This document shows positions 13,135 to 32,266 of a DNA stretch of 32,266 nucleotides, in pieces. This DNA is from Deltaproteobacteria bacterium (GTDB taxonomy: Bacteria > Desulfobacterota > Binatia > UBA12015). The notes beneath the pieces were generated by a model, which worked only from the letters and a program-made list of their open reading frames with translations, had not been told where the DNA came from and did not search any database. How positions within the stretch are numbered: position 1 is the first letter of the stretch; every line of letters begins with the position of its first letter. Where the stretch lies: the NCBI GenBank assembly GCA_016874795.1, contig VGTG01000059.1, positions 1 through 32,266 of the forward strand, in the 5' to 3' direction. A program made the translations under genes and the position numbers.

Positions 13135-13296
13135 TGTCCCGTTCCTGAAGTTCGGCGCATAAGGCTGCGAGGGATTTTCGTCGCTGCCGAGTCGCGACGA
13201 CGAGGGAATATTGGGCATATTTCGAGGAGGAGCAACGAAGGCAGCGGCGAAAAGAGCCGCAGAATTATGTGGCGAACTTCAGGGACGGGACACTAG
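13131..13296. mobile_element. MITE-like palindromic element flanked by CTAG repeats
   Basis: The termini form inverted repeats of about 38 bp: CTAGTGTCCCGT then CCTGAAGTTCG on the left, and its near-exact complement CGAACTTCAGG then ACGGGACACTAG on the right. Further in, TTTTCGTCGCTGCC pairs with GGCAGCGGCGAAAA with one mismatch, and the centre holds AATAT-TGGGC-ATATT. The element is about 158 bp and has no ORF. It is clearly less GC-rich at its centre than its surroundings. CTAG occurs at both ends (13131-13134, 13293-13296) and could be a 4-bp target duplication fitting an IS5-like YTAR site. No transposase is in the window. As a long hairpin it may also terminate transcription after hisF. 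Confidence 0.8.
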
Positions 13297-13311
13297 GAGC
13301 CGGTACGAGCG

Positions 13312-14334: not shown

Positions 14335-14344
14335 CCGCGTGCGC

Positions 14345-14503
14345 GGTCGGCCCGGCCGGTCGTGCGCGCCGGAGGACGATCCAGCCGGCGCGCTCGGTCT
14401 CGATGCGAAATCCTTCTTCGGCGACGAGACGGCGCGCGTACTCGCGGTAGGACGCCTCGGTGTCGAGGCCGGGCAGAAGCCGGATGTCGACCGGGAAGCG
14501 ATT
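14345..14503 (-). pseudogene. In-frame 3' remnant of the DUF2079 gene
   Basis: Directly after the TGA at 14506-14504 the same minus-strand frame continues as protein-like sequence: NRFPVDIRLLPGLD, SYREYARRLVAEE and GWIVLRRARP, running to about 14345. DUF2079 proteins commonly end in a short soluble tail with a 'G-x-x-V-L-R-R' finish, so this looks like the original C-terminus, detached by a deletion and stop codon. Beyond 14345 the frame runs into the convergent end of the cation-transporter gene and stops at 14258. Confidence 0.5.
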
Positions 14504-15400
14504 TCAATACTCGATCGAGCGCTGCGGCGCGAACGACGAGAGGAGGTTCAGCGCGATCTCGCTCGCGGCGGCGATCAGGACGTCGGGTGCGAGGAGACTC
14601 GTCCCACCGAAGGGGAGGAAGGTCCCGCGCAGGTACGCTCGCCCTTCCGGGCCGAACATCCTCTCGAGCAGGATCGTCGGGTCGGCGACGAGGGCTTGGC
14701 CCACCGCGAGCCAGCTCCGGCCGAGATGACGGTAGCGGCCGAACGCGTTCGAGCCGCCCGGGTTGAGCGCCGGCAGGATCACGAAGAAGCACGTCGCGAA
14801 CCAGGCGAGCCCGGCGGCGAAGAGCGCCGCGCCGACCTTGCGCAGCCCTTCGAGCAGGAGGACCACGCCGAGCATCGCGACGACGAGCGCCGCGTTCTCC
14901 TGCGTCGCGAGCATCAGCAGGCTCGCGAGGAGAAGGGCGGGCGCGTCCGCGCCCAGACGCCGTCGGGCCACGAGGAAGAGCGGGATCATCCCCGAGGCCA
15001 CGAGGAGCGCCTGGACGACGATCAGCGTCTCGGGCCCGTCATGGATCCAGTACAGGGCCGCGATCGGGAGGAGGATGAGATTGACGTGGTCGGCGAGGTG
15101 GTTCGTCGAGTGCGGCGGGAACGCGACCATGTAGGTGTACTCGAACCAGCGGCCGTGGGCTGTGTTCCAGGTGACGTGGTGCTGGAAACCCAGGTCGTGG
15201 GCGTTCGACTGGAAGGAGAGGTGCCGCAGGATGCCGAGGCCGCCGAGCTCGACCGCCCAGGCGGCGGCGAGAACGAGCGCGAGGCCGAGCCCGAGAGGGA
15301 CGCGGCTCTCGACGGAGGGCTCCGCCCGGCTCTTTCCGATTCCCGGCACCCGCGACGCTCGGCTCGCGACGCAGATACCCGGTCGGGATCGGGAGGACAA
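14504..15400 (-). pseudogene. DUF2079-type membrane protein, internally deleted and truncated
   Basis: The frame gives 298 residues from TTG 15400 (GTG 15349 is an alternative that fits the first membrane segment better). DUF2079 proteins are polytopic, glycosyltransferase-like membrane proteins of about 450-600 residues. Visible family marks are NAHDLGFQHHVTWNTAHGRW, LIVVQALLVASGMIPLFLVA, LATQENAALVVAMLGV, YRHLGRSW and a final ALNLLSS. The usual block with a D-F-H-P motif between the ARRRLG helix and the ATQENAAL helix is missing, about 40-45 residues. The frame stops at SIEY, where relatives continue through more membrane helices. In-frame C-terminal sequence resumes after the stop. I read it as a decayed gene; an assembly error is the alternative. 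Confidence 0.6.
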
Positions 15401-15590
15401 TGCGGGCGCAGATCATGACGCAGACTCCCTCGCTTCCCTGTGCCGTCGACACCGTGATAATCGAAGCCGCTCTAAGCTCGAAGCCCGCGGCTGCCGCCGC
15501 GGGGCGCTCCCACGTGCGTCTCCCGAAGCGGCGGCCCCTTGCGCCAGGGAGAGGCCATGCGCGATCGTGGATCCAAGCACGTCGGTGTCG

Positions 15591-18500: not shown

Positions 18501-18872
18501 GCCGACTTCGACGACCCCGTGGGCACGTCGACCACCTACGACCTGTGCCTCTACGCGGACGGCGAGTTCGTCGCCGAGCTGAGCGTGCCGTCGCCGACCG
18601 GCTGGAAGGCCGTCGGCAGCGGCTTCAAGTACTCCGACAAGACGCTCTCGAACGACGGCATCCAGACGATCCAGCTGAAGGCGGGTGCAACGGAGAAGGC
18701 GAAGATCACGGTCCTCGGGAAGAAGAGCGGGCTGCCGTTGCCGCCGATCCCGCCGCCCGGCTTCGCTCTGCCGTTCACGGTGCAGCTCGACAACGACGCG
18801 GGCGAGTGCTGGGAGTCGACCTTCCCGGCGGCGCTCGTGAACGGTGGCGGAGAGCTCCGAGCGCGGTTCTGA
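15591..18872 (+). CDS. Secreted YVTN beta-propeller / di-haem cytochrome c peroxidase-like protein
   Basis: As read it has 1093 residues. An N-terminal hydrophobic stretch (LVALVVALATILVAA) is a probable signal peptide. The first half has propeller repeats such as PLALTPDGLRLLAVN, PVAVSVRSDGSEAWVVN and PRALAVSPDGTRVYAAV. The second half has two haem c sites, C525-x-x-C528-H529 and C681-x-x-C684-H685, plus FLHDGSIDTIFRFHD, which recalls the di-haem peroxidase/MauG family. An Asp-rich DRDEDGVLDGDE linker (about residues 912-923) leads to a C-terminal beta-rich domain of about 160 residues. It is likely periplasmic or surface-exposed with a redox role. The start is uncertain: ATG 15557, behind GGGAGAGG, would give a better signal peptide if the ten-G run at 15593-15602 had nine Gs. 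Confidence 0.88.
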   Translation: MGGGLVALVVALATILVAARPSEASFVTFESGHVRPLALTPDGLRLLAVNTPDNRLEIFDVDANGDLTHGGAVPVGLEPVAVSVRSDGSEAWVVNHLSDSVSIVDLTSVPPRVERTLLVGDEPRDVVFAGAGLGRAFITTAHRGQNTPFHSTIETTLRAPGVGRADVWVFDAANLGSPMGGTPLTIVTLFGDTPRALAVSPDGTRVYAAVFHSGNRTTTVSEGVVCDDGNLNNNTVPGPCTLSGTSYPGGLPLPERSSDGVGRPETGLIVRFHAASGQWRDQLNRNWNNGVKFNLPDRDVFVIDATQNPPAQLAGPAGFFAGVGTVIFNMITNPVDGTVYVTNTEARNEVRFEGPGILGGSTVRGHLHESRVSVLAGGTVTPRHLNKHIDYGVVPSAPGVEASSLATPLGMAITGDGETLYVAAFGSSKVGVYDTDMLELDTFTPAAVPHIDVTGGGPSGLVLNEAKSRLYVFTRFDNSVSVIDTGTNDELQHIGVYNPEPVSVVGGRPLLYDASFTSSNGEASCSSCHIFGDLDSLAWDLGNPDDVVLEQENPFRVTDPLGSSFPDHHPMKGPMTTQSLRGMANHGPMHWRGDRSGANDPGGSAFDEDAAFKRFNVAFEGLLGREGPLTADQMQDFTDFILQVTYPPNPIRNLDDSLNDDQEAGRDFYFNSSPSDVFQTCNGCHVLDRAQGFFGGDGRSSFENEPQLLKIAHLRNLYQKIGMFGMPQIPFVNGGDNAHKGDQIRGFGFLHDGSIDTIFRFHDAIVFNQCIPVFGCINAGGFPNGAEGDPLRRQVEAFMFVFDSDLAPIVGQQVTLSSTSGSDAGARISLLISQAEADYFIGSKSCDLVVKGYVAGEPRGWLYDPDTNGFESDRLAETLLSDAALRGLASVPGQELTYTCVPPGSGERIGIDRDEDGVLDGDESGGGGGRCPPAPVVGCRAPGRSDLQIKGVAGKEKLTWKWLRGAQTDVADFDDPVGTSTTYDLCLYADGEFVAELSVPSPTGWKAVGSGFKYSDKTLSNDGIQTIQLKAGATEKAKITVLGKKSGLPLPPIPPPGFALPFTVQLDNDAGECWESTFPAALVNGGGELRARF
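15593..15602 (+). repeat. Run of ten G at the start of the propeller/cytochrome gene
   Basis: Ten consecutive Gs directly follow the AT of the possible start ATG 15591. The ATG at 15557 reads into the gene's frame only if one G is removed or two are added. Such tracts can slip in replication or be miscounted in sequencing. Confidence 0.9.
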
Positions 18873-18957
18873 CGAGCGAGCGCGGCGAGCCCGCCGCAGA
18901 GGCCCGAAGTGGGGCCGCCATTGACGCTGGAGAGGGTTTTCACGAAGATCTGAGCCG

Positions 18958-20484
18958 ATGGCGGCCCCGGAGTCTCGCGACCGGAACGATCGTCGGTGGC
19001 GTGGATTCGTTCAGGCGAGCGCCAAGATCGCCGGCGACGGCGAGCCTGCGGACCTCTTCGGCGCGATCCTCGACGCGGTCATCACGCTCTTCGATCTCGA
19101 AGCGGCGAGCATCGGCCTCGTCGATCCGACCGGCAGCCGCGTCCGGTTCGTCCTCTCGCGCGGCCCGGCGAAGCTCGACGAGTTCGAGGTCGAAACGGGC
19201 GTCGGAATCGCCGGCTGGGTCGCGCAGACGGGCGAGGGCCTGATCGTCAACGACGTCGCGAACGACGAGCGCTTCTTCGGCGGCATCGACGAGAAGACGG
19301 GCTTCCGGACGCGCGCGATCCTCTGCGCGGCTCTCAAGACCGAGGAGCGCATCGTCGGCATCATCGAGGCGATCAACCCGAAGCGACGCGACGAGTTCGT
19401 GGAGAGCGACCTCGATCTGCTGAACGCGTTCGGCGGCGTCGCGGCGAACGCGCTCGAGCGGGCGCGGACGCTTTCGACCCTTCGCGGGACGAACGCGGAG
19501 TTCCGCGCGGAAGCGGGCGAGCGTTACCGGCTGGTGCTCGGGAAGAGCCCGACGATGCAGAAGGCGCTCGAGCTCGCTCACACGGCGGCGGGCTCCTCGA
19601 GCACCGTGTTGCTGCTCGGCGAGAGCGGCACTGGGAAAGAGGTCGTCGCACGCGCGATCCACCAGTGGAGCGCGCGGGCGAACGCTCCGTTCATCGCGGT
19701 GAACTGCACGGCGCTCAGCGCAGAGCTTCTCGAGAGCGAGCTCTTCGGTCACGAGCGCGGCTCGTTCACCGGCGCGATCGCACAGCGGAAGGGACGCTTC
19801 GAGCTCGCCGACACCGGCACTCTCTTCCTGGACGAGATCGGGGAGCTCGCGCCGACGCTGCAAGCGAAGCTTCTGCGCGCGCTCCAGGATCGCGAGTTCC
19901 AGCGCGTCGGCGGCGAGAGGACGATCCGCGTCGACGTTCGTATCGTCGCCGCGACGAATCGCGACCTGCGCGCCGCGGTGCGCGCGCGGACGTTCCGCGA
20001 GGACCTCTACTACCGGCTGAACGTCATCGCGATCGAGCTTCCCTCTCTCCGCGAGCGGCGGGAGGACGTGCCCGAGCTCGTCGATCACTTCGTGCATCAC
20101 TTCGCCCGCGAGATGAACCGGACGGGGCTCGGCGTTTCGGACGAGGCTCTGTCGGCGCTGCGGACGTACCCGTGGCCGGGGAACGTGCGCGAGCTGCAGA
20201 ACGCGATCGAGCGGGCGATCGTCCTCGCGCGCGGGACGGAGATCCTGCTTTCGGATCTTCCGCGGGACATCAGCGAGCCGCTCTCGGAGGCGGTGAGCGC
20301 CGCGGCGGGGCTGGACGGCGTGCCCGAGGAGCTCGAGCTCCGTGAGGCGGTGGACGTCTTCACGAAGGTCCGCATCTCGCAGGCTCTGGCGTCCACGGGC
20401 GGTAGCCAGACGGCCGCGGCGCGCAAGCTCGGTCTGCCGCAGTCGAATCTTTCGCGGTTGATGAAGCGTCTCGGCTTGCGATGA
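18958..20484 (+). CDS. Sigma-54-dependent transcriptional activator, GAF-AAA-Fis HTH
   Basis: Enhancer-binding proteins of this class hydrolyse ATP to open sigma-54 promoters. The 508-residue protein has an N-terminal GAF domain (about residues 25-175) for ligand or redox sensing. The AAA+ domain has Walker A GESGTGKE from G221 and Walker B LFLDEIGE with D292-E293. Its sigma-54 contact loop is GSFTGA (268-273), a Ser variant of the usual GAFTGA. The end of the AAA+ domain is WPGNVRELQNAIERA. A C-terminal Fis-type helix-turn-helix runs SQTAAARKLGLPQSNLSRLMKRLG. It has no receiver domain. Its stop overlaps the next ATG (ATGA), making it the first gene of a coupled five-gene string. It may control that string, but no full sigma-54 promoter was found. 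Confidence 0.95.
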   Translation: MAAPESRDRNDRRWRGFVQASAKIAGDGEPADLFGAILDAVITLFDLEAASIGLVDPTGSRVRFVLSRGPAKLDEFEVETGVGIAGWVAQTGEGLIVNDVANDERFFGGIDEKTGFRTRAILCAALKTEERIVGIIEAINPKRRDEFVESDLDLLNAFGGVAANALERARTLSTLRGTNAEFRAEAGERYRLVLGKSPTMQKALELAHTAAGSSSTVLLLGESGTGKEVVARAIHQWSARANAPFIAVNCTALSAELLESELFGHERGSFTGAIAQRKGRFELADTGTLFLDEIGELAPTLQAKLLRALQDREFQRVGGERTIRVDVRIVAATNRDLRAAVRARTFREDLYYRLNVIAIELPSLRERREDVPELVDHFVHHFAREMNRTGLGVSDEALSALRTYPWPGNVRELQNAIERAIVLARGTEILLSDLPRDISEPLSEAVSAAAGLDGVPEELELREAVDVFTKVRISQALASTGGSQTAAARKLGLPQSNLSRLMKRLGLR

Positions 20485-20861
20485 GCAACGGGAGCTCGAC
20501 GCAGTTCCGGGTGATCGCAGCGTTCACCGGGTTCATCGGCGCATGGCTGCCGTTCTTCCTGCATGGTCCGATCCCGGAGAAGCTCGATCGCGTGCGGATC
20601 AACGGCGCGCTCGCCGTCTGGGGCTGGTTCGTCGCGCGGATGCTGATCGGCGTCGTCGTGGGAACGACGACTTGGCCGCGGATCGTGTGGGTGCGCGGCG
20701 CGCTGTTTGGATTCTTGATGATGCTGCCCACGGGAATCATCTCGCTCGCGACGCCGGGGTGCGGTCCCGAGTGCATGGCGGCGAACCTCTCGACGGGCGC
20801 CCTGGTCGGCGTGCTCGCGGGCGGCGCGGCGTGGTTCTTGACGGGGCGGCATCACGGATGA
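20481..20861 (+). CDS. Small four-helix membrane protein of unknown function
   Basis: The protein has 126 residues from ATG 20481, which overlaps the preceding stop (ATGA). Four hydrophobic segments are visible: VIAAFTGFIGAWLPFFLHG, GWFVARMLIGVVVGTTTW, RGALFGFLMMLPTGIISLA and GALVGVLAGGAAWFL. Two cysteines (PGCGPECM) sit in the loop between helices 3 and 4 and could form a disulphide or bind a metal. I do not recognise a named family. Its stop also overlaps the next ATG. It is therefore tightly coupled between the sigma-54 activator and the tandem cyclase, where it might be a membrane anchor or sensor; that is inference. Confidence 0.8.
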   Translation: MSNGSSTQFRVIAAFTGFIGAWLPFFLHGPIPEKLDRVRINGALAVWGWFVARMLIGVVVGTTTWPRIVWVRGALFGFLMMLPTGIISLATPGCGPECMAANLSTGALVGVLAGGAAWFLTGRHHG

Positions 20862-23800
20862 GCGCGCGGCGCGCCCTCGATCGTCGTCGCGCTGCGGTGC
20901 TGTTCGCAGATATCGTGGGGTTCACCGCGCTCTCCGAAAGCGCCGGTGTCGAACACGCCTACGCCGTCGTCACCGGCTGCCTGAAGCTGCTCGATGGCGT
21001 GGCCCGCCAGCACGGGGGCGTCGTCGACAAGTACCTTGGTGACGCCTTGATGGCGGTGTTCGGGATACCTGCTCCACTCGACAACCCTTCGGCCGCGGCG
21101 ATCGGCGCGGCGCTCGAGATGCAGCGTACGGTCGACGCCTACAATCGACAGGTCCAGGCGCCGGTGCCACTGCTCCTCAAGGCCGGCGTGAACACGGGCA
21201 TGATGACAGCGGGCGATCTGCTCAGCGACGTCGTGCGTGAGTTCCACGTCATGGGCGACGCCGTCAACATTGCGGCGCGGTTGAAGGAGCGCTCGGTGCC
21301 CGGCGCGGTCTATGTCGGCGGCGACGCCGCCAACGAGGCCGGAGATCGCTTCCGCTTCGATCCCCTGCCGCCGCTCGCTCTCAAGGGCAAGTCGGCAAGC
21401 GTCGCGGCATACGCAGTCCTTGGCTCCTCGGACGACGAGCGCGCCGTGTGGCCGGAGACCACTTCGTTCACGCCGCTCGTCGGTCGCAGGCACGAGCTCG
21501 CGGTGCTCCGCGCGTCGCTGGGTGCGTTGGCCGACGGCACCGGTGGAGTGGTGGCGCTCTTCGGCGAGGCCGGAATCGGCAAGACGCGGCTGCTGTACGA
21601 GCTGGCGGCGGGTGCGGCGGATGCGACACCGCCGAGCGCTGCGCTTGCCGCCGCCCGAACAGTCGGAGCGGCGGTGGAAGCGCTCGCGTCCGCGGCCGGG
21701 CCCATCGCGATCGCGCTCGACGATGCGCACGAGCTGGACATCGACGCAGTTGCGATATCCGAGCTCTTCGCGCACGTTGCGTCGCGTCCGGTCCTGCTCC
21801 TTCTTGCGGGGCGAGACGGCGGCGCGACCGAGCACGTGCGCGACGCGGCCGAGGGCCGCGGTGTGCGCTACCAGGAGCTTCGTCTCGGGCCACTTTCCGA
21901 CGGCGAAGCTGCCGATTTGCTGGAGCGGGTCCAGGCGGGCGCGGAGCTCGCGGACGAGGCCCGCTCTCTCGTCCTCGAGCGCGCGCGCGGCAACCCTTTC
22001 CGTCTCGTTTTCGGAACTCTCCTCGCACCCGCTCTCGAGTCGGAGCGAGGACACGCGGCGATCGGTGTCGAGCGCTCGAGCGAATCGGAGCGGCGGCGTG
22101 CGACGGTCATGTTCGCCGACATCTCGGGCTTCACGGCGCTCTCGGAGCGGCTCGATCCGGCGGAGGCGTACGACGCCGTCACCGGCTGCCTTCGGCTGCT
22201 GCACGCGACGGCGGAGAAGCACGGCGGAACCGTCGACAAGTACCTGGGCGACGCCGTGATGGCCGTCTTCGGTGTGCCGATCGCGATCGAGGACGCGCCG
22301 TGCGCCGCCATCAATGCCGCGATCGAGATGCGCCGCAACGTGCGCGCCTACAACGAGCAACGTGCGTTTGCGACGCCGCTCGACGTGCACATCGGGATCG
22401 ACACCGGCCTCGGCATCGCCGGCGACGTGAGTGGACCCCTGCTGCGCGAGTTCGCGCTGATGGGGGACTCCGTCGGTCGTGCGTCGCGGCTCACCTCGCT
22501 CGCGCCGAACGGCCACGTCTATCTCGGGGAGGAGACGGTACGCGCGGTGCGCCACCGCTTCGCCGTCCAGCCGGTCGAGCCGGGGGAGGGGAAGGGCGGT
22601 GCGCCGGGTGATGTCGTCTACGACCTGTTGTCCGAGCGCGAGCAGATACATCGTCCACGTCTGGGCCGCGGCGAAACGCTATTCACCGAGCTCGTCGGCC
22701 GTACGGAAGAGGTCGACCTCCTGCGCGCCGCCGTGAAGGACCTCGCGTCCGGTCGTGGCGGCATCGCGGGAATCTTCGGCGATCCCGGCATCGGGAAGTC
22801 GCGTCTTCTCGAAGAGCTACGGGCAGAGGCCGCTGCGCGGAATGTCCGGTGCCTCGACGCACGCTCTCTCGCGATCTTTGCGCCGGTACGCTTCCACCCG
22901 TTCGTCGACTTGCTGCACGCTCTGACGGGCATCGCCGGAGACGATGACGAGACTGCGCTCGGCAAGCTGGCCGACGCGACCCACTCCCTTCTTGGGGAGG
23001 CGGCCGAGGAGATTCTGCCCTTCCTAGGAGTCGTGCTGGGGCTCCGCCTACCGCCGGAGATGCAGGCTCGCGTCGACGCCGTCAAGGGCGACGCGCTCGA
23101 CCGTCTCCTCTTGCGAGCCGTCCGCGAGCTTTTCGAAGGACTCGCAGCGGCGGCTCCGCTCGCGGTGGTATTCGAAGACCTCCACTGGGCGGATCGGTCT
23201 TCGGTCGAGATGCTCGCGAGCCTGCTGCGGATGGTGCATGAGACGCGAATCCTGTTCGTCTTCGCCGCGCGCCCGGGTTTCCCCGAAAGCGCCGGGCTCG
23301 TCTCGGAGACAGCGATGGAGGTCGGCGGCGACCGCTACCGTCCGCTCGAACTCCGGCCGCTCGATCGCTCGGGCGTGCGCCGTCTCCTGGCCGGGTTGTT
23401 TGCGCATGGAGAGATGCCCCGGGCGCTACGCGAGCGACTCGAGACCCACACCGCGGGAAGCCCGCTCTTCCTCGAAGAGCTCGTGCGTACTCTCGTCGAG
23501 CAGGGTGTCCTCGAAGCCGTCGGTGACAAGCTGCAGGCGACTGCGGCGCTGGAGAGCGTCAGCGTTCCGGGCACGGTGCAGGAGGTCATCCTGTCACGTG
23601 TCGACCGCCTCGATCCGAGTGCCAAGCAGATCCTGCAGCTCGCGGCGGTGATCGGCCGTAGCTTTTCCGACGGGCTCCTTACGCGCGTCGCGTCGGAGCC
23701 CACACGCGTGCCGGAGGCGCTGCGCAAGCTGCTCGATGCGCAGCTTCTCGTCGAGCGGGCACGCGAGGGCCGGAGTGAGCTCGCCGTCAAGCATCCCATG

Positions 23801-25462
23801 ATCCAGGAGGTCACGTACGAGGCGATCCTCGAGTCGCGCCGCGAGGAGTTGCACCGCGCGGTTGCTGCGGCGATCGAGGTGGAGTCCGACGCGGGCGATC
23901 CCGCGCGTCACGGCCTGCTCGCCTATCACTACAGCCGGGGCCGCGACCTCGGCCGCGCCGAGGACCATCTGCTGCGCGCCGGCGATGACGCGGCGCGGGC
24001 CGGTGCGTCGGCCGAGGCCGTCTACTTCTTCGAGGAAGCATCCCGCCTCTACCTTGCTCGTCACGCTGACGGCGGAGATCCCGCGAAGCGAGTCGAGCTC
24101 GAGAAGAAGCTCGCGACCGCCTACTTTTACCGCGGCCGTCTGGTCGATGCCGGCGAACAGTTCAATCGCGCCCTGGGCCGCCTCGGAATCCGCATCCCGC
24201 GCGGCCGCGGCGATCTGAACCTGAGCCTGTTGCGCTCGCTGCTGGCCTCTCTGGCGCCGCTTTACTTGCCCCTCGGGCGCCGCCGCCCGCCGGCGAGCGC
24301 GTACGACCTCGAGGTGCTCGAGCTGATGCTCGATCGCGCGCGTGCGCAGACGACCGGCGATCCGACGCGCTTCGTCGTCGACACCCTGGAAGCCCTCCGT
24401 CATCTCAGCCGTCTCGACCCTGCGACGGTGCCTGGGGCGTGCTCCCTCTTTGCCAGCACAGCGGGCCTCTTCGCGTACAGCGGCCTATCGTTCGACATCA
24501 GCGAGCGCTTTCTGCGGGTCGCCGAGAGGTACCTCGACCCGGACGACGCTACCGAGGTTCTGGTGTTCCAGATGATGCGGTTCACGCACGGATTCCTCGC
24601 TGGCAACTGGGAGAAGGAGCTCGAGATCGACGGCGCGCTGCTCGATGCCGGCGTCGGTCGCGGGCAACTCTGGGACGTGGCGACCCATCTCGGGCTCGAG
24701 GGCACGAAGCTCGTCCTGCAGGGCCGCTTCGCCGAGGCTGAGGAGCGGGTCGCACGTATCGCGGCGATCGAGGATCGCTACGACTACGACCTTGCGAGCT
24801 CGAATCGGCATAGCGTGCGCGTCTCGCTGCTGCTCGAGCAACGCCGTCTCCTCGACGCACTCGAAGCCGCCGAGGTGTATCTCATCGAACACGACGAGCC
24901 GCTGCTGAACGTGATCGCGTTGGGGCTCAAGGCGAAGATCGAGGTACTGCTCGGCGACCTTCCGGCGGCGAGTGCCACATTGGCGGATGCGGACGCTCTG
25001 ATGGCGCGTCTCGGTCGCATCCCGCCCCTTCAAAGCGTGCACTGCGCGCGTTCGAAGCTCCTCCTGGAGCTGGCGCGGAGCGAAGCGGAACCTGCCCCTC
25101 GGCGCGCGCACGGCTTCGTCGCGGCGCGGCGAACCGCGCGCAAAGCGGTACGTCTCGCGATGCGGGTCGCATGGCTGCAGCCGGAAGTCTTCCGCAGCGC
25201 CGGCACGTGCTGCTGGCACGCCGGACGGCCGCGACAGGCGTTGCGCCTCTGGAGGCACTCGCTCGGTGCCGCGCAGCGGCTGCAGGCTGGGGCGGAAACC
25301 GCCCGGACGCAGCTCGAGCTCGCGCAGCGGCTGATCGCCGCCGGGCGCGGTGGCGAGGTGGTCGACGGCCGGAGCGCACGCCAGCACATGATGGATGCGC
25401 GGCGGTACTTCGAGCGCGCGGGACTCGAGGAGGAGCTTTCGATCGCCGGCAGCGCTGCATGA
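20858..25462 (+). CDS. Giant tandem class III cyclase / AAA-type ATPase / TPR-like protein
   Basis: ATG 20858 overlaps the previous stop and gives 1534 residues. Cyclase domain 1 has metal aspartates D18 (FADIVGFTALSE) and D62 (KYLGDALMAVFG), adenine-type lysine K58, and transition-state N137 and R141 (GDAVNIAARL). A short ATPase module follows: Walker A GEAGIGKT (K242), Walker B LDDAH (D288-D289), ending near ARGNPFRLVF. Cyclase domain 2 closely resembles domain 1 and keeps D421, D465, K461 and R544, but has G540 in place of the catalytic Asn (GDSVGRASRL). A full ATPase follows with Walker A GDPGIGKS (K647) and Walker B VVFEDLHWAD (D774), then a helical TPR-like region to the end. No membrane helix is seen. 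It probably makes cAMP under control of the ATPase modules; the signal is unknown. Confidence 0.93.
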   Translation: MSARRALDRRRAAVLFADIVGFTALSESAGVEHAYAVVTGCLKLLDGVARQHGGVVDKYLGDALMAVFGIPAPLDNPSAAAIGAALEMQRTVDAYNRQVQAPVPLLLKAGVNTGMMTAGDLLSDVVREFHVMGDAVNIAARLKERSVPGAVYVGGDAANEAGDRFRFDPLPPLALKGKSASVAAYAVLGSSDDERAVWPETTSFTPLVGRRHELAVLRASLGALADGTGGVVALFGEAGIGKTRLLYELAAGAADATPPSAALAAARTVGAAVEALASAAGPIAIALDDAHELDIDAVAISELFAHVASRPVLLLLAGRDGGATEHVRDAAEGRGVRYQELRLGPLSDGEAADLLERVQAGAELADEARSLVLERARGNPFRLVFGTLLAPALESERGHAAIGVERSSESERRRATVMFADISGFTALSERLDPAEAYDAVTGCLRLLHATAEKHGGTVDKYLGDAVMAVFGVPIAIEDAPCAAINAAIEMRRNVRAYNEQRAFATPLDVHIGIDTGLGIAGDVSGPLLREFALMGDSVGRASRLTSLAPNGHVYLGEETVRAVRHRFAVQPVEPGEGKGGAPGDVVYDLLSEREQIHRPRLGRGETLFTELVGRTEEVDLLRAAVKDLASGRGGIAGIFGDPGIGKSRLLEELRAEAAARNVRCLDARSLAIFAPVRFHPFVDLLHALTGIAGDDDETALGKLADATHSLLGEAAEEILPFLGVVLGLRLPPEMQARVDAVKGDALDRLLLRAVRELFEGLAAAAPLAVVFEDLHWADRSSVEMLASLLRMVHETRILFVFAARPGFPESAGLVSETAMEVGGDRYRPLELRPLDRSGVRRLLAGLFAHGEMPRALRERLETHTAGSPLFLEELVRTLVEQGVLEAVGDKLQATAALESVSVPGTVQEVILSRVDRLDPSAKQILQLAAVIGRSFSDGLLTRVASEPTRVPEALRKLLDAQLLVERAREGRSELAVKHPMIQEVTYEAILESRREELHRAVAAAIEVESDAGDPARHGLLAYHYSRGRDLGRAEDHLLRAGDDAARAGASAEAVYFFEEASRLYLARHADGGDPAKRVELEKKLATAYFYRGRLVDAGEQFNRALGRLGIRIPRGRGDLNLSLLRSLLASLAPLYLPLGRRRPPASAYDLEVLELMLDRARAQTTGDPTRFVVDTLEALRHLSRLDPATVPGACSLFASTAGLFAYSGLSFDISERFLRVAERYLDPDDATEVLVFQMMRFTHGFLAGNWEKELEIDGALLDAGVGRGQLWDVATHLGLEGTKLVLQGRFAEAEERVARIAAIEDRYDYDLASSNRHSVRVSLLLEQRRLLDALEAAEVYLIEHDEPLLNVIALGLKAKIEVLLGDLPAASATLADADALMARLGRIPPLQSVHCARSKLLLELARSEAEPAPRRAHGFVAARRTARKAVRLAMRVAWLQPEVFRSAGTCCWHAGRPRQALRLWRHSLGAAQRLQAGAETARTQLELAQRLIAAGRGGEVVDGRSARQHMMDARRYFERAGLEEELSIAGSAA

Positions 25463-26976
25463 CGCGAAGTTGGGCGCTTGGCTGCACACTGCTGTCTGCC
25501 GGCTGCTACGGTGTCGCCTTCCCGCCAGTCGGCTGGCACCTCGCCGCGTGGGTGACTCTCGTCCCCTTCTTCCTCGCTCTGCGTGGCGCCGGGGTGCGGC
25601 GAGCGGTCGGGCTGGGCGCGGTCTGGGGGATCGTCGCGGCATACTCGGTCGGCACCTGGATGCCGGTCGCGATCACGCGCTACTATGCGCAGCCGGTAGC
25701 CGTCGGAGTTTTGGGCTTCGTGCTTTGCGCCCTCGTCACCGTGGCTCCCTACACGGTCGCCTTCGCCTTGCTGTATCGGCGCGTCGCCGGACGGACCGGT
25801 GCGCTGGAGGTCCTCGTCGCCGCTGCGATGTGGACCGCGACGGAGTTCTGGCGGGCGGTTTCTCCCGCCGGGAATCCCTGGTCGCTCAGCGGCTACTCCC
25901 AGGTTCCCGTCCTTCCACTCGTGCAGATTGCCGACGTGACCGGTGTATTCGGCATCTCCTTCCTCGTCGCGGCGGCCAACGCAGCACTTGCCGGCCTGTG
26001 GTGGACCCTGGGTGACTCCGCCGTCGAACGACGGCGCTCGCTTCGTGGGGCGGCTTTTGCCGCGGCTGCTTTCACGGTCGTCCTCGCGTATGGGGAGGTT
26101 CGACTGGGCGCGCCCGCCGAGGATGCCGCGGCGGTTCCGGTCGCCGTCGTCCAAGGAGACCTCGACCTGGGCTCGCAGTGGCGCCCCGAGCTCTATGGGG
26201 AGAATCTGGAAGCGTACCTCCGCTTGACGGATGCAGCGCTCGAGCGGCGGCCCGCACCTCTCGTCATCTGGCCGGAAAACGCGCTCTCCTTTTTTCTCGA
26301 GAAGGAAGCGGCCTATCGGCGGGTGATCGCAAACGTGCTCGCCGCGCACGGAGCCGAGCTTCTCACCGGCGGGCCGCGTACGGAGCCTTCGGCGGGCCGC
26401 AAGGCGCGCTACCAGAATGCAGCGTTTGTCGTCGGGCCGCACGGCGCGATCCGCTCCACCTACGAGAAGCAGTACCTCGTCCCATTTGCCGAGTACTTCC
26501 CGCTGCCGGCTCTCGACGCCATGCGGCGGCGCTTCGGTCGCGTGCGGGAGTTCGTCCCTGGCACGCGACACACCCCGTTGCCGACGCCCGCGGGTCGGGC
26601 CGGCGTCCTGATCTGCAACGAGGCGCTCTACGGCGACGTCGCGCGCGAGCGCGTGCTGAGCGGCGCCGAAATCCTGGTCAACCTCAGCAACGATGGGTGG
26701 GTGGGCGAGCCGCAGTACGCGGCAATCGCGTTCGAGATGTCTCGGCTTCGCGCGGTCGAGGCGCGGCGCTGGCTCGTGCGCTCCTCGACCTCCGGTCCAT
26801 CGGCAGTGATCGATCCGCTCGGCCGTGTCGTCGTGGGGGCGGCGCTCGACGAGCAGGCGGTCGTCGAGGCGTCGGTCGCGCCTCGCACCGAGAGGACGCC
26901 GTATACGCGCTTCGGCGACTTCTTCGGCTGGGCGTGCTCGGCGGTGGCGCTCGCGGCAGCGGTGCGTCGTGCTTGA
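25459..26976 (+). CDS. lnt: Apolipoprotein N-acyltransferase (Lnt family)
   Basis: Lnt adds a third acyl chain from phospholipid to the N-terminal cysteine of lipoproteins, at the periplasmic face of the inner membrane. ATG 25459 overlaps the cyclase stop (ATGA) and gives 505 residues. The first half has several membrane helices and the motif SPAGNPWSLSGYSQ. The second half is a nitrilase-like domain with the full catalytic triad: E273 (VIWPENAL), K337 (YEKQYLVPFAEYFP) and C386 (VLICNEALYGD). NLSNDGWVG and RWLVRSSTSGPSAVID complete the pattern. A C-terminal hydrophobic stretch ends the protein. Placement in a signalling operon with a lipid-modifying enzyme is unusual; this may be a specialised paralog rather than the housekeeping copy. 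Confidence 0.94.
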   Translation: MTRSWALGCTLLSAGCYGVAFPPVGWHLAAWVTLVPFFLALRGAGVRRAVGLGAVWGIVAAYSVGTWMPVAITRYYAQPVAVGVLGFVLCALVTVAPYTVAFALLYRRVAGRTGALEVLVAAAMWTATEFWRAVSPAGNPWSLSGYSQVPVLPLVQIADVTGVFGISFLVAAANAALAGLWWTLGDSAVERRRSLRGAAFAAAAFTVVLAYGEVRLGAPAEDAAAVPVAVVQGDLDLGSQWRPELYGENLEAYLRLTDAALERRPAPLVIWPENALSFFLEKEAAYRRVIANVLAAHGAELLTGGPRTEPSAGRKARYQNAAFVVGPHGAIRSTYEKQYLVPFAEYFPLPALDAMRRRFGRVREFVPGTRHTPLPTPAGRAGVLICNEALYGDVARERVLSGAEILVNLSNDGWVGEPQYAAIAFEMSRLRAVEARRWLVRSSTSGPSAVIDPLGRVVVGAALDEQAVVEASVAPRTERTPYTRFGDFFGWACSAVALAAAVRRA

Positions 26977-28150
26977 AGCGCGCTCCGTGCTCGCTCGCCG
27001 GGCCGAGAGCCTCGCGGCGTCAGGTGCCTCGCTCACTCTCTGCGTCCCGGGATCGCCACCGTTGCACGTGGGTCAGCCGCCGGCGCGAGCGGTGGTGACG
27101 CTCCGGACGCCGACGGCACTCGTTGCCCTCGAGCGCGGCGACCACCTCGCACTCGCCGAGGCGTTCCTCGCGGGCGAGATCGACGTCGACGGGTCGCTGA
27201 ACGAGGTGATGAAAGTAACCGAGCAACTGCAGCTCGACGCGAGCGGCTTCGACCGGCTGCAGCTCGGGCTGCGTCTTCTTCTGCGAGACCGGTTGGCCTA
27301 CGACCGGGAATCGATCGCGTTCCACTACGACCGCCCGGTGGAGTTCTTCTTGCCCTGGCTCGACCGCTGGCGCTGCTATTCGCACGGTCTCTATGCGTTT
27401 CCGGAGGAGCCGATCGACGCCGCGATGGCGCGCAAGATGCAGACGGCGATCGACTCCCTCGGCCTCGAGCCCGGGATGGACGTGCTCGACATGGGCGGCG
27501 GCTGGGGATGCTTCGTCGAGTACGCGGGCCTCCGTGGCATCCGCGTCCATGCGATCACCATTTCCGAGGTCCAGCACCGATTCGTGACGGACTTGATCGA
27601 GCGATTACGGCTGCCGTGCACGAGCACGCTGGTGCATCTCCACGTCTATGAGCCCCCACAACGCTTCCACGGGGCGGTGTTCATGGGCACGCTCGAGCAC
27701 GTCCCCGAGTACGATCGCGTCGCCTCATTCCTCGCCAGGCACCTGGCGCCGCAGGCTCGGGTCTGGGCGGACTTCTGTGCGCAGCGCACCGACTTCACGA
27801 TCGGGCGGTTCATGAAGCGCTACATCTGGCCCGGTCCAATCACTTACGTGGACCCAGCGCGGCTCGTCCGCGCATTGCTTCGTCACGGCTTCAACGTGCA
27901 CGAGCTACGCGACGATACGCTGAGCTATGCATGCACGGTGCGTGACTGGGGCGATGCTCTGGAAGCGAATGGCGCGGCGCTTGGTTGCGACTTCGGCGAG
28001 CCCGCAGTGCGCGCGTTTCGGCTCTTCCTGCGCGGCTCGCTCCATTTCCTGACGACCGATCGGACGCAGGCGTATCACCTCGTCGCCGGACGCGGCGCCG
28101 CTTCGCTGCCGAGCGGAGCGACTGCGTCGGCGGTGACGCGCGGCTCGTAG
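26969..28150 (+). CDS. Cyclopropane-fatty-acid-synthase-like SAM methyltransferase, divergent
   Basis: GTG 26969 overlaps the lnt stop by 8 nt and gives 393 residues, the CFA synthase size. The layout matches that family: an N-terminal lipid-binding-like domain, the entry FHYDRPVEFFLPWLD, SAM loop VLDMGGGWGCF (172-182), GTLEHVPEYD (E243) and KRYIWPG. However, the residues that hold bicarbonate in E. coli Cfa differ. YSCAYW becomes YSHGLY (His139 for the Cys), and the later active-site His aligns with A267. The protein may therefore methylate acyl chains without making a ring, or use another lipid. The gene ends the coupled string, and its last 76 bp overlap the convergent desaturase gene, which could supply unsaturated acyl substrates. 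Confidence 0.88.
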   Translation: MLEARSVLARRAESLAASGASLTLCVPGSPPLHVGQPPARAVVTLRTPTALVALERGDHLALAEAFLAGEIDVDGSLNEVMKVTEQLQLDASGFDRLQLGLRLLLRDRLAYDRESIAFHYDRPVEFFLPWLDRWRCYSHGLYAFPEEPIDAAMARKMQTAIDSLGLEPGMDVLDMGGGWGCFVEYAGLRGIRVHAITISEVQHRFVTDLIERLRLPCTSTLVHLHVYEPPQRFHGAVFMGTLEHVPEYDRVASFLARHLAPQARVWADFCAQRTDFTIGRFMKRYIWPGPITYVDPARLVRALLRHGFNVHELRDDTLSYACTVRDWGDALEANGAALGCDFGEPAVRAFRLFLRGSLHFLTTDRTQAYHLVAGRGAASLPSGATASAVTRGS

Positions 28151-28983
28151 TGGACGACGGCACCCACGGCCGGGACGACTTCGCACGAGCCGATCGCCTC
28201 GAGAAGGGCGCGCCAGATGGGACGCTGGTCCTCGCGATACCGCGCCCCGAGCATCGGACGGATCGCGGCAGCTGCCTCGCGCAAGCGATAGTGAGGAATC
28301 GCCGGGAACAGGTGATGCACGACATGGCAGCCCGCGTCGTGATGCAGGCGCTCGAACAGGCCGTAGCGGCGATCGACGGTCGAGAGCGCGCCCTTCTCGA
28401 ACGTCCACCCGCCATTGCGATACCACGGTAGCGAGGCGTCCGTGTGGTGCAGGTAGGTCACGAGGTCGATCCACACGACGAATACGAGATACGGTCCGAC
28501 GTACCAGCGGACGAGTGCGACGGGCCCGGCGAACAGTGCGCTCGTGAGGAGTACGACCAGGAACGCCCCGCAGAGCACGACACTCGTGGCAACTCGGCGC
28601 CTCTCGCGCGGGCGGAAGAGCACGCTGCGGGGGCGGAAGTGGGAGCCGATTCGATTCGGAGAGCGTCGGGCGAGGTAGAACGGAAACGCCAGCAACGGCA
28701 GGCGAAAGCGCAGGAAGCGCACGTGTGCGGGCAGCGCATCGACCTCCGCCGCGGTGAGAGGGTGCCAGCCTTCGTCGCGCCCGATGTCGCCCGTGTGGCG
28801 GTGGTGAATGCGGTGGCTCAGCCGCCAAGCGTGGTAGGGCACCAGCAGCGGTGTATGGGTCAAATGACCGACGAGCGTATTGATCCACGGACGCCGCGAG
28901 AAGGAGCCGTGCCCGCAATCGTGCCCCACGACGAAGAGCGCCCAGAGAATCGTTCCCTGGGCGAACCAGAAGAGCGGTACCAA
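28075..28983 (-). CDS. Membrane fatty acid desaturase, plant FAD2/FAD3-like
   Basis: These di-iron membrane enzymes insert double bonds into lipid-bound acyl chains. The three histidine boxes are present: GHDCGHGSF, HRIHHRHTGD and CHVVHHLFP, with LVPYHAWRLSHR as in plant omega-6/omega-3 desaturases. The largest frame with a permitted start begins at TTG 28983 and has 302 residues. The protein-like sequence continues in frame 42 codons further upstream, so this start probably cuts off real N-terminal sequence. The C-terminus overlaps the methyltransferase gene by 76 bp on the other strand. Together with that gene and Lnt it suggests membrane-lipid tailoring. Electron donors are not encoded nearby. 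Confidence 0.9.
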   Translation of the reverse strand: MVPLFWFAQGTILWALFVVGHDCGHGSFSRRPWINTLVGHLTHTPLLVPYHAWRLSHRIHHRHTGDIGRDEGWHPLTAAEVDALPAHVRFLRFRLPLLAFPFYLARRSPNRIGSHFRPRSVLFRPRERRRVATSVVLCGAFLVVLLTSALFAGPVALVRWYVGPYLVFVVWIDLVTYLHHTDASLPWYRNGGWTFEKGALSTVDRRYGLFERLHHDAGCHVVHHLFPAIPHYRLREAAAAIRPMLGARYREDQRPIWRALLEAIGSCEVVPAVGAVVHYEPRVTADAVAPLGSEAAPRPATR

Positions 28984-29109
28984 CGCCGCCGGGGCGTTCC
29001 AGCTGAGAACGTAGAGGCCGGCGAGCAGCCCGAAGTCGACCGCGAGGTGGAGCAGCGAGCGCGCCGTCGAGGGAACGAGGCAACGCTCCGGGATCGCCGA
29101 CTTGATCGA
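28984..29109 (-). other. In-frame 5' extension of the desaturase without a start codon
   Basis: Reading the desaturase frame upstream of TTG 28983 gives SIKSAIPERCLVPSTARS, then LLHLAVDFGLLAGLYVLSW, then NAPAAL joining VPLFWF. The A-I-P-x-x-C segment and the following helix match the conserved N-terminus of FAD2-like desaturases. No ATG, GTG or TTG occurs in this frame before the stop at about 29151, and the neighbouring gene's stop codon is at 29132-29134. The gene is either 5'-truncated at a junction or uses an unusual start such as ATC or CTG. Confidence 0.7.
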
Positions 29110-29131
29110 CCTGCAGTCGCGGCTTGTGGCT

Positions 29132-32100
29132 TCAGGGCCCGTACGAGCCCTCGATCACGATCGACGCCGCGCGATAGCCGAAGCACTGGTTGCAGGCCGC
29201 GATGCTCGCGGCGTCGTCGCCGCAGGCGTCGAGCGGCGCGGGGAGCAATCCCTCGCACGGCTTCTCGAGCGCTTCCCGCAAGGTCTGCGCCGACTTCGCG
29301 AGCTTCATCGCCGCCTGCGGATCCGTTGGCGGGACGGTGCCGAGAGGCGCATCCGAGCCGAGGCAGAGCGCGGCCGAGTCGCCGCTGATCTTCCCGTCGT
29401 TGAAGCGATCGAGGCAGTTCCGCATCGCCCCCGCTGCGGCCGCCGTGTAGGTGACCACCTGCTTGCCGATCTTCTTCTGGCAGGCGAGCCGCTTCGGGTC
29501 GTCGACCTCCGTCACGTCGCCGTACGAAAGCTCCGTGATGAAGGCCGTCGCGAAGGCGGCACGGGAGGTGAGGCACTTCATCAGCGCGTTCAGGTTCGAT
29601 CCGCACGCGTCGATCTGCGTGAGCTGCGTCGCGTCGCACTTCTTCTCGATCGACTTTCTGGCGCTCGCGACCGCGGCGGCGATCTTCTCCTCGGTCTTGT
29701 CGTCCTCCGGAGGCGTGCCGAGCCCGAGGTTGCCGCGGCAGACCGGGTCCGGCGGACCCGCGAGCTTCCCGCTCGCGATCCGGTCGAGACACGAGGTCAC
29801 CGCCTTCGCATAGCCCTTGAAGAGGTTCTCCGCGCCCTTGCCGACCGCATCCTGACACGCGTTCGCCTCGCCGGGCGGCGCGGCCGGCGCCTCCGGCGCG
29901 AAGGCCGCGCAGAACGGCGTCGGATCGCAGGCGTTCCCGAGCCCGTCCTCGTCGGTGTCGAACTGGTCGGGGTCCGACTGCTCGACGCAGATGTCGCTCG
30001 AGTCGAAGACGCCGTCGCCGTCCTGGTCGCCGTCGACGAGGACGACGACGTCGCTCTGGTCGCCGTCCTCGTTCACGTCGCTCGCGAGATCACCCTCGAA
30101 CGCGTCGCGGTACACGATCGGCGCGCCGATGAACGTCGTCGGCAGCGGCGGGAGGCGGAACTGGCCGTTGAACGTCTTCACGATCTGCGTCCGCGCGGAG
30201 CGCACGCTGAAGATCTGCACGACCGTGTCGTTCGCGTCGCCGTCGCCGTCGAGGTCCTGGTTGCCCTGGTCTGCCTCGCGCGTCAGGAACGCGACGGAGT
30301 CGCCGAGGATCTTGTACGGCAGGCCGGGCTCGCAGCCCGGCTGCTCGCACTTGATCGTCGCCTGCTGGGTGTCGATCGTCTGGTTCGTCACGAGGTCGTA
30401 GATCCGCATGACGAGGTCCGTGCAGTCGCCGTCGGTGTTGTCGAACGGGATCTCGTTCTGGTTGAGGCAATCGAGGCGGAACACCCCGTCCTCGCTGTCG
30501 CGGAACGCGATCAGATTCCCGGACACCTCGAAGTCGACGACGTTTCGCCCGATCTCGATCGATCCGGGAACGCCCTGTCGGTGCACGGCGAGGGCGAGAT
30601 CCGCGTTGCCGTCGAAGTCGGTGGCACGCAACTTCAGGGAAACGGCGACGCCCTGACACGTGCCTCCCGGGCAATCTCCCCCGTCGTCGCAGGCGTCGCC
30701 GTCGGCGGAGCCGCCGGAGCAGACGTCCGTCGCGCCGACGTCGAGCGCGTCGACGCCGACGATCTCCGGCGGCGAAGCCGGCGCCGCGAGCGACGTCACG
30801 ACGAGCGTGTCCTCGGCGAGGGTGCCGTCTCCGTCGGCGTCCCCCGCGGTGAGATTCTCAGGGGCGGCGAGCGCCATGATCTGCGACGAGAGCGCGAGCT
30901 TGTTGGCGAACGCCGACGCGTCGTCGAGGGCGACGAGAGCGTCGGACGCCGCCTCATAGAGCGAGACGCTGGGGAAGAGCGTCCCGAAGGCGGTCGACGG
31001 CCGGATGAACGCCGCGCGACCGCTGGCCACCGAGGCGAGCTTCGCCGCCGAGGGCGCCCCGGCAAGGCCTGGACGGAGCTCTCCGGTCGCGGTGTCGAAG
31101 GCCTGTAGCGCGCTCTCGCGCGCGTAGACCTCGCCCGAATCCTGGTCGCCGTTCTGCACGTACACGTGCTCGCTGTCCGGGCTGATCGCGAGCCCGACGT
31201 TCGCGAGCCCGACGAATCCGCCCCCGAGGAACCGGTTGAAAGCGAGCGTCCCGGTCGCCGTGTTGCGATCGAACGCCGCGATCTGCGCCTGCGAGTTGAC
31301 GGTGTAGAGCGCGATTCCGTCGGGACTCACCTCGACGCTTCGGAGGTCGTTCAGGCCGCCGACCCCCGGGCTGCCCTGGGCGACGCTGGCGACGAAGGTC
31401 AGGGTGCCCGCCAAGAGGTCGCGCGAGAAGGTCGTGACGGCGCTCTCGTTCTGCGCGACGGCGTAGACGAAGCGGCCGTCCGGACTCACCGCCACGTCGA
31501 TGACGCCGTCGAGCACAGTGCCGCCGTTGCCGTTGTCGACCAGATCTTGGAGCTCGGTGATCTCGGAGGTGTCGTTGAGGCGCGAGAAGGCCTTCACGCG
31601 ATCGCTCCCGTGTACGGCGACGTAGACGTTGCGGCCGTCCGGGCTCGTCGCGACGCCGCGCGGCGAGAGGAAGTTCGGGATGCAGACCCGCGTCGGCGAG
31701 GGAACGCAGCCGACGTTGTGTTGCAGCGTCTTGTTGAGCACGAGCGCCGGCGGGATCACGAGAGCCGTCGTTTCCGAGACGTCGAAGGCGCTGACGGTGT
31801 TGCCGCTCGGCGATACCGCGTACAGCGAAGCGCGCTGGGTGAGGATCGTGCCGTCCGGCGTGAACGGAGTGACGGCGAGACGCCTCGCTCCCACGGCCGC
31901 GGCGGTCGTCTCGTTCGCGCCGATCCCGACCGTGATCTGATCCGGGCCGATGCCGAGGCGGAAGGCGCCGACGAGGCCCGCGCTCGGAGCCGCCAGGTAG
32001 AGGATCCTTCCCGACGGGCTGAAGACGACACCGTCCGATCCGTTGGTGAGGCCACATTGCCCGCGCCTGCCGGGAACGCCGATGAGTACGGGCGAACCCG

Positions 32101-32266
32101 TCGCGCCGTCGCGCCGCCGGACCCGCAGCTCGCCGCAACCGGCCGTTGCCAACGGGCTCGTCGTCGCGACCAGGCGTCCGTCCGGGCTCACGGCGACGTC
32201 CATGCCCGACTCGATCAGGCCGCTCGGCGCCTGGAAGCCGACCTCCGGCTGGCGGAAGTAGACGAG
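29132..32266 (-). CDS. Secreted beta-propeller protein with Asp-rich and tandem Cys-rich repeats (5' end outside window)
   Basis: The frame is open to the window edge, so the N-terminus and any signal peptide are missing; 1044 residues are visible (ATG 32203 is probably internal). The first part has propeller-like repeats such as VAVSPDGRLVATTS, GVATSPDGRNVYVAV, VAVSPDGRFVYAVA and VEVSPDGIALYTVN. The middle has a Cys-rich ADGDACDDGGDCPGGTC segment and Asp-rich calcium-type repeats (DGDQDGDGVFDSSDIC, DTDEDGLGNACD) as in thrombospondin type 3. The C-terminus has two Cys-rich repeats (29857-29519 and 29482-29135), each starting CQ and ending SYG. It is probably an extracellular or outer-surface protein. 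No enzyme motif is seen and its function is unknown. Confidence 0.85.
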   Translation of the reverse strand, partial: LVYFRQPEVGFQAPSGLIESGMDVAVSPDGRLVATTSPLATAGCGELRVRRRDGATGSPVLIGVPGRRGQCGLTNGSDGVVFSPSGRILYLAAPSAGLVGAFRLGIGPDQITVGIGANETTAAAVGARRLAVTPFTPDGTILTQRASLYAVSPSGNTVSAFDVSETTALVIPPALVLNKTLQHNVGCVPSPTRVCIPNFLSPRGVATSPDGRNVYVAVHGSDRVKAFSRLNDTSEITELQDLVDNGNGGTVLDGVIDVAVSPDGRFVYAVAQNESAVTTFSRDLLAGTLTFVASVAQGSPGVGGLNDLRSVEVSPDGIALYTVNSQAQIAAFDRNTATGTLAFNRFLGGGFVGLANVGLAISPDSEHVYVQNGDQDSGEVYARESALQAFDTATGELRPGLAGAPSAAKLASVASGRAAFIRPSTAFGTLFPSVSLYEAASDALVALDDASAFANKLALSSQIMALAAPENLTAGDADGDGTLAEDTLVVTSLAAPASPPEIVGVDALDVGATDVCSGGSADGDACDDGGDCPGGTCQGVAVSLKLRATDFDGNADLALAVHRQGVPGSIEIGRNVVDFEVSGNLIAFRDSEDGVFRLDCLNQNEIPFDNTDGDCTDLVMRIYDLVTNQTIDTQQATIKCEQPGCEPGLPYKILGDSVAFLTREADQGNQDLDGDGDANDTVVQIFSVRSARTQIVKTFNGQFRLPPLPTTFIGAPIVYRDAFEGDLASDVNEDGDQSDVVVLVDGDQDGDGVFDSSDICVEQSDPDQFDTDEDGLGNACDPTPFCAAFAPEAPAAPPGEANACQDAVGKGAENLFKGYAKAVTSCLDRIASGKLAGPPDPVCRGNLGLGTPPEDDKTEEKIAAAVASARKSIEKKCDATQLTQIDACGSNLNALMKCLTSRAAFATAFITELSYGDVTEVDDPKRLACQKKIGKQVVTYTAAAAGAMRNCLDRFNDGKISGDSAALCLGSDAPLGTVPPTDPQAAMKLAKSAQTLREALEKPCEGLLPAPLDACGDDAASIAACNQCFGYRAASIVIEGSYGP
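29135..29857 (-). repeat. Two tandem Cys-rich repeats of about 115 residues in the propeller protein
   Basis: Repeat 1 (from 29857) has the order CQDAVG, SCLDRIASGKL, VCRGN, KKCDA, DACGSN, KCL and ends ITELSYG. Repeat 2 (from 29482) has CQKKIG, NCLDRFNDGKI, LCLGS, KPCEG, DACGDD, ACNQC and ends VIEGSYG. At least six cysteines keep their place, which suggests three conserved disulphides per repeat. A spacer of about 12 residues separates them. Confidence 0.8.

Follow-up and report, generated by a model that had tools for sequence, protein, structure and literature searches.

The window analysed here is one whole contig of 32,266 bases (C59) from a 360-contig genome of 6.27 Mb with an estimated completeness of 96.7%. 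Towards its right end, the minus strand carries a coding-like frame for a DesB-like fatty-acid desaturase (28075 to 29112; 345 codons plus a stop), for which homology is clear from codon 29106 downwards. The upstream neighbour on the same strand is a beta-propeller gene of the Lactonase family (29132 to 32266), which ends in S-Y-G-P followed by a TGA stop (29134–29132) and whose frame is open to the contig end. Two other genomes of the same family serve as main references: G005, which belongs to another genus and has a desaturase 68% identical to that of the window, and G010. The neighbour is 66% identical to its counterpart in G010 and 63% to that in G005, with tblastn giving 66% and 61%, respectively. 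A cyclopropane-fatty-acid-synthase-like (CFA-like) methyltransferase gene lies on the plus strand (26975 to 28150, with 26975 as the first base translated). Its product matches CMAS with 104.6 bits and NCBIfam models only below their cut-offs, and is 77% identical to that of G005. This gene is convergent with the desaturase gene, and the two share 76 coding bases at their 3' ends (28075–28150), compared to 82 in G005. Next to it, also on the plus strand, an apolipoprotein N-acyltransferase-like gene (lnt; 25474 to 26976, with an approximate start) scores 278 bits against a cut-off of 132.9 for TIGR00546 and is 70% identical in G005. Together with the genes for NtrC, a small protein and a cyclase, which come first, the lnt, CFA-like, desaturase and neighbour genes make up a block (18958 to 32266) that is collinear with contig C13 of G005.

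The desaturase belongs to the FA_desaturase family of Pfam (PF00487), scoring 127.2 bits against a gathering cut-off of 29.7. It has the three histidine boxes (HDCGH, HRIHH and HVVHH) and the membrane helix fold. The NCBIfam equivalogs for Delta5 DesA and Delta10 DesB reach 53.9 and 36 bits, respectively, below the curated cut-off of 500. A structure model built with 24 homologues has a mean pLDDT of 85 and a pTM of 0.84. It predicts helices at residues 16–38 (pLDDT about 88–95) and 42–63, and fits chain 8xks_K, which is named a desaturase-domain protein by sequence search, with a TM of 0.81 over the query and 24% identity. Among the best 80 of 573 loci, the best outside matches are cyanobacterial, with 46–53% identity over most of the length. 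PMC2593844 gives FVVGHDCGHXSFS, HGWRISHRTHHXNTGN and IHHXIGTHVAHHIF as the standard of the cyanobacterial Delta15 (omega-3) desaturases and AHECGH as the first box of the microsome-type Delta12 clade. The first box of the window, FVVGHDCGHGSFS at residue 60, fits the first DesB box exactly, and its GHDCGH core departs from the AHECGH of the microsomal FAD2-type Delta12 enzymes. In the second and third boxes, HAWRLSHRIHHRHTGD and LHHDAGCHVVHHLF, the histidines and some of their neighbours are kept and several other positions differ from the standard, hence the designation ‘DesB-like’ rather than DesB. An earlier, sequence-only reading of this locus had pointed out the conserved AIPERC segment and the first helix, both of which we recover, but its comparison with FAD2 needs a small correction: the enzyme is closer to the cyanobacterial omega-3 (Delta15, DesB) group. 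The best reading, in which regioselectivity is judged by sequence likeness, is that of an ordinary omega-3/Delta15-type DesB-like membrane desaturase. In a tree of the best 80 of 573 homologues and G005, the desaturases of the window and G005 are sisters (100/95) on terminal branches of 0.46 and 0.59, and their group takes in 68 further rows at 93/93, unstarred; long branches and an unusual make-up were flagged for both target rows and the root serves for drawing only. This tree, with the best 80 of 573 homologues and G005, gives no support for a donor nested inside the cyanobacteria.

The desaturase gene lacks a usual start codon where its protein is expected to begin. According to the codon listing, the minus-strand frame that stops at 28075 holds a single ATG, GTG or TTG, namely TTG 28983 (28981–28983), which encodes residue 44 within the predicted helix 42–63. 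Above it, the frame is open to the TGA at 29157–29155 without any ATG, GTG or TTG, just as the sequence-only reading had it. The conserved N-terminal segment thus left without a usual start (28984 to 29106, minus strand) comprises the IKSAIPERC motif and the first predicted membrane helix (residues 16–38). Across 29165–28976 of the minus strand, only three ATG, GTG or TTG triplets occur in any frame: GTG 29158 in the frame of the neighbour, TTG 29083 in another frame that is not that of the desaturase either, and TTG 28983. A frame correction that would yield a usual start upstream was sought in this interval and found in no frame. The 15 bases from the stop of the neighbour to a CTG (29117 to 29131, minus strand) are likewise devoid of a usual start in all frames. 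No sigma-70-like promoter was found in 28900–29400, and a single terminator-like site (minus strand, 28990–28973; 0.2 expected) falls within the desaturase coding region. Searching the genome for another copy of the joint gave none (the next best match spans 26 bases, E 0.02), and no direct repeats were found within 28950–29250. Six short inverted pairs in the latter interval are taken for chance occurrences in GC-rich DNA.

Codon usage indicates that the start-less segment is coding-like. A model trained on 20 stretches of 20 kb from the same genome plus the window, with the tested gene included, yielded 249 gene-like frames, some of which are surely false (e.g., an antisense frame at 29954). 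Of these, 111 have at least 20 open codons before their first usual start, and among them the desaturase ranks first when the 20 codons preceding the TTG are scored (0.78 bits per codon). The best coding stretch of its upstream region extends over 41 codons (21.5 bits). One frame (at 5493 of locus L202, contig C20) collects more total bits (34.3 vs. 21.5). In this putative beta-helix-protein-like gene, the coding signal moves from one frame into another near 5335, which looks like an internal frameshift. As one such broken-looking frame turned up in the 20 sampled stretches, this assembly or genome does seem to contain small indels.

The comparison with homologues leads to the same picture. 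We collected 81 rows, i.e., 80 loci of the GTDB genome collection (the best 80 of 573) and G005, and set one (L120) aside, as its match begins at residue 44, too late to be informative. All 80 informative rows have an ATG, GTG or TTG in frame upstream. Column counts were made on the 71 aligned homologues with at least 45% identity, again without L120 and drawn from the best 80 of 573 loci and G005. The A, I and P of the motif are present in 69, 70 and 71 of these, respectively, and the C of ERC in 69. Codon listing, codon-usage score and these 71-row columns together bear out the sequence-only claim of a coding-like desaturase N-terminus without a start. That reading also described the homology as fading about 20 bp from the stop of the neighbour. 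The fading is real, but the distance needs correction, as the good in-frame similarity stops at codon 29106 (the I of IKSAIP), 25 bases from that stop.

The same segment is under constraint. Between the window and G005, the first 43 desaturase codons show a dN of 0.36, a dS of 0.68 and an amino-acid identity of 60%, while the remaining 302 codons show a dN of 0.24, a dS of 0.86 and an identity of 69%. The frame is otherwise free of internal stops. Relaxed constraint at the N-terminus was sought at those columns in which 85% or more of 70 homologues (from the best 80 of 573) agree: the window deviates at 5 of 15 N-terminal columns vs. 35 of 157 elsewhere, which is not significant (Fisher p 0.34), and G005 deviates at 3 of 15 and 41 of 157. 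Since the rest of the desaturase is intact and constrained and there is no excess of N-terminal deviations, any loss would be recent or unreal. In the absence of signs of long-term decay, either a lesion is recent, or it is absent from the organism, or a rare start is used.

G005 allows the joint to be compared. Its neighbour ends in S-Y-G-P and a TAG, one base after which a GTG follows. A second GTG is located seven codons after the first, ahead of P-L-R-E-L-R-A-A-V-P, and either of both may be the start. In both genomes, the reading frame of the desaturase is shifted by +1 from that of the neighbour. The distance from the stop of the neighbour to the IP motif is 37 bases in the window vs. 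49 in G005, i.e., 12 bases shorter. The missing start, the conserved N-terminus and the conserved synteny and frame relation are direct observations. Upstream of codon 29106, the residues of the window do not follow the family (71 homologues from the best 80 of 573): the column of S 29109 holds D, E or Q in 71/71, that of C 29115 holds L, F or I in 71/71, and that of R 29112 holds Q (n = 49), K (n = 14), A (n = 5), R (n = 2, one of which is G005) or N (n = 1). The minus-strand bases CTG CAG G (29110 to 29116) encode the family residues L-Q in an adjacent frame, with one possible extra base, according to the profile columns and offset scoring. Dropping one base at 29110/29111 places L-Q in the two preceding columns, where these residues occur in 62/71 and 49/71 homologues (best 80 of 573). 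This match amounts to 9.5 bits, a score that, per frame tried, a fraction of 0.0014 of sites picked at random from the sampled stretches also reaches; the statistics are weak, as seven offsets were looked at and two columns were picked post hoc, so that the corrected figure is about 0.01. With a third column, the score declines to 7.0 bits, and with a fourth to 3.1 bits. We regard this as moderate evidence that one base, 29110 or 29111, is extra. Its removal still leaves the 15 bases without an ATG, GTG or TTG, so a second change or one compound change would be needed. The sequence-only reading had proposed a deletion or insertion joint within 29110–29131. A small indel in or near this stretch is partly supported by the 12 missing bases and the off-frame L-Q.

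The explanation that we favour, and consider probable, is a small local lesion that damaged the first codons of an ordinary DesB-like desaturase, either by real decay or by a consensus error. The gene is located directly downstream of the beta-propeller gene, an arrangement also seen in another genus of the family, and the 25 bases between the stop of the neighbour and codon 29106 would carry the lesion, being without a start, 12 bases fewer than in G005 and probably having one base extra at 29110/29111. As to its nature and age and its effect on expression, we infer the following. A recent real mutation, as a first step of gene decay, is a tentative option, and a consensus or strain-mixing error of the assembly is a somewhat doubtful one. 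The sequence as written would give little or no full-length enzyme. The coding-like character of the 20 codons before TTG 28983 is also compatible with a gene that is still translated, which weighs against a lesion.

A functional desaturase with a rare near-cognate start is an unlikely alternative, though the best placed after a lesion. The most suitable codon would be ATC 29106 (29104 to 29106, minus strand), giving fMet-KSAIPERC; a second ATC is listed at 29094–29092. ATC is a permitted start in translation table 11. Its position at 29106 coincides exactly with the beginning of the in-frame similarity and the frame downstream is constrained, but every informative homologue has an earlier usual start (80/80, from the best 80 of 573 loci and G005). 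Some homologues have a TTG or GTG within a few codons of this position; these are probably internal, and a very short N-terminus is possible. Upstream of ATC 29106, the 16S tail finds no better pairing than −3.7 kcal/mol, at a spacing of 1, although such weakness says little, since Shine-Dalgarno pairing is also weak for several other genes of the window. Overall, this pairing does not decide between the start candidates (−3.7 for ATC 29106, −5.0 kcal/mol for TTG 28983). Ribosomes that end the neighbour 25 bases upstream might perhaps re-initiate at the ATC, and weak initiation would then keep the desaturase low. That the start-less sequence is both correct and functional in this manner, with ATC 29106 deliberately keeping the desaturase level low and perhaps served by ribosomes that re-initiate behind the neighbour, strikes us as quite improbable. 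A functional non-canonical start does have a precedent in the GTC of Streptomyces sigR (PMC5472188). A limited literature search returned no measured initiation efficiency for ATC starts.

That 29110–29131 is a recombination joint at one end of an acquired block including the lipid genes, as the sequence-only reading put forward, is very unlikely. The block is patchy. A desaturase (E 1e-30) is present in only two of 148 genomes of the class, those of the window and G005, and at E 1e-50 in one of 395 genomes of a phylum sample, the window’s own, G005 evidently not having been drawn. Three genomes of the same genus (G001–G003) have no close counterparts of NtrC, the CFA-like enzyme, the desaturase and the neighbour, the four genes searched there. 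Close counterparts of NtrC (E 1e-100) occur in three of the 14 family genomes searched (the window’s own, G005 and G010). In G010, the neighbour (66%) ends in Y-G-P-N-P and is followed by an lnt relative (51%) without any desaturase, and in G005 the block and the his genes are located on separate contigs (C13 vs. C4). Against an edge at the joint, however, G005 has the same adjacency and frame relation of desaturase and neighbour, and the collinear stretch continues past the joint in either direction. A recombination junction implies different DNA on one side in relatives, and G005 is homologous on both. When the joint is compared with this syntenic relative, as the sequence-only reading suggested, it is found to be kept, with a GTG start and no block edge. 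The identities of the block to G005 (NtrC 78%, small protein 65%, cyclase 73%, lnt 70%, CFA-like 77%, desaturase 68%, neighbour 61%) resemble those of native genes (hisD 73%, hisF 84%, hisA 78%, hisB 76%, hisH 76%, murA 68%, CDF 65%), and the ranges of 61–78% for the block vs. 65–84% for these seven native genes show no sign of a recent transfer. As the joint is common to two genera and the block is no closer to G005 than native genes are, 29110–29131 does not mark where a recently acquired block ends, and the sequence comparison with G005 largely refutes this reading.

A candidate left edge of the block is instead situated between 14.3 and 19.0 kb. In its left half, the window has the gene order of contig C58 of G001 (murA to CDF), and murA is 78% identical to that of this same-genus genome vs. 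68% to that of G005. The names his, murA, CDF and others left of 18.9 kb are presumptive, being readings of the sequence rather than results of a family search; the right-hand genes take theirs from the Pfam and NCBIfam matches. Within 13134–18958, this native his/murA cluster is joined to the block that G005 has on a different contig. The connectors are a putative CDF-like transporter, a putative glycosyltransferase-like frame and a long beta-propeller-like frame. If the patchy block has a real left edge at all, it would lie here. Sequence comparison does point to a breakpoint behind the neighbour, one that is older or separate and would have arisen in an ancestor or in the line of G010. It does not explain the missing start, since G005 shares the arrangement of the window. 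The G010 cluster itself (L177; contig C48, 6672–19229) is rearranged, with neighbour, lnt and cyclase on one strand and the CFA-like gene, small protein and NtrC on the other; identities are 78% for NtrC, 32% for the CFA-like protein and about 50% for lnt and cyclase.

A shortened desaturase that truly starts at TTG 28983 is highly improbable. This TTG is the sole usual start in the frame and has the strongest pairing with the 16S tail among the candidates (−5.0 kcal/mol), yet at a spacing of 1. It encodes residue 44 of the predicted helix 42–63, and a start there would remove the predicted first membrane helix (16–38), a part that is constrained relative to G005 (dN 0.36, dS 0.68) and conserved across the family. 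It is therefore a poor candidate, and its late position makes it unlikely as the native start. A +1 ribosomal frameshift at the stop of the neighbour (GGG CCC TGA A, in which CCC slips to CCT), producing a fusion protein, is scarcely credible: the desaturase frame is indeed shifted by +1 from that of the neighbour and reads on where the neighbour stops, and the G005 neighbour likewise ends in CCC and a stop (GGA CCC TAG C), but G005 has a GTG of its own, G010 keeps the proline followed by NP and a stop with no desaturase behind, so that a conserved protein end explains the proline, and fusing a probably exported beta-propeller to a membrane enzyme would be topologically unlikely. The slip-prone stop context (29132–29140) is probably a by-product of the conserved S-Y-G-P end.

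The cyanobacterial relatives show a peculiarity in their starts as well. In 58 of the 67 rows of cyanobacterial desB-like loci (L055–L125, from the best 80 of 573), no ATG occurs in the open frame before the motif, and in 33 of the 67 a single GTG is all that could serve as a usual start, its surroundings often resembling ttcGTGCAATC. Not counted among these 67 are G005, ten rows that come from other groups (Spirochaetota, Actinomycetota and others) or have no stated group, the late-matching L120, and L128 and L133, which are titled cyanobacterium and are only about 30% identical. The start of the cyanobacterial omega-3-type desaturase thus appears to be conserved as GTG, and a weak GTG start might be part of the control of this gene. 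None of the papers listed by a literature search contained ‘GTG start codon’, which is no proof of its being unreported. A functional ATC start in the window, if true, would take to an extreme the preference for a weak start that this desaturase family already seems to have. With a real near-cognate start, the gene could be used to test whether weak start codons control membrane-lipid desaturation at the level of translation. The finding is largely ordinary and mostly a matter of annotation hygiene. A gene caller limited to ATG, GTG and TTG reports a 302-residue protein from TTG 28983 without the first membrane helix, and sequence alone cannot tell whether the organism has a working copy of the desaturase.

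Among known systems, plant or microsomal FAD2 (Delta12) belongs to the same superfamily and presumably has a similar AIP..C segment. The cyanobacterial omega-3 (Delta15) acyl-lipid desaturase DesB is closer: the window resembles it in the first box and by 46–53% identity (best 80 of 573), but differs in having no usual start and in the second and third boxes outside the histidines, and stands apart, together with G005, from the other 68 rows of the group in the tree. With regard to the start, Streptomyces sigR is likewise a coding frame that has no usual start at the expected beginning of its protein. In the case of sigR, the ribosome-binding site is strong, with an extensive AGGAGGTG site, and the GTC start has been proven by experiment (PMC5472188), neither of which applies to the window desaturase. 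The nearest counterpart is the desaturase of G005, which has the same neighbours, gene order and frame relation, and differs by a GTG one base past the stop of the neighbour and by 12 additional bases at that point.
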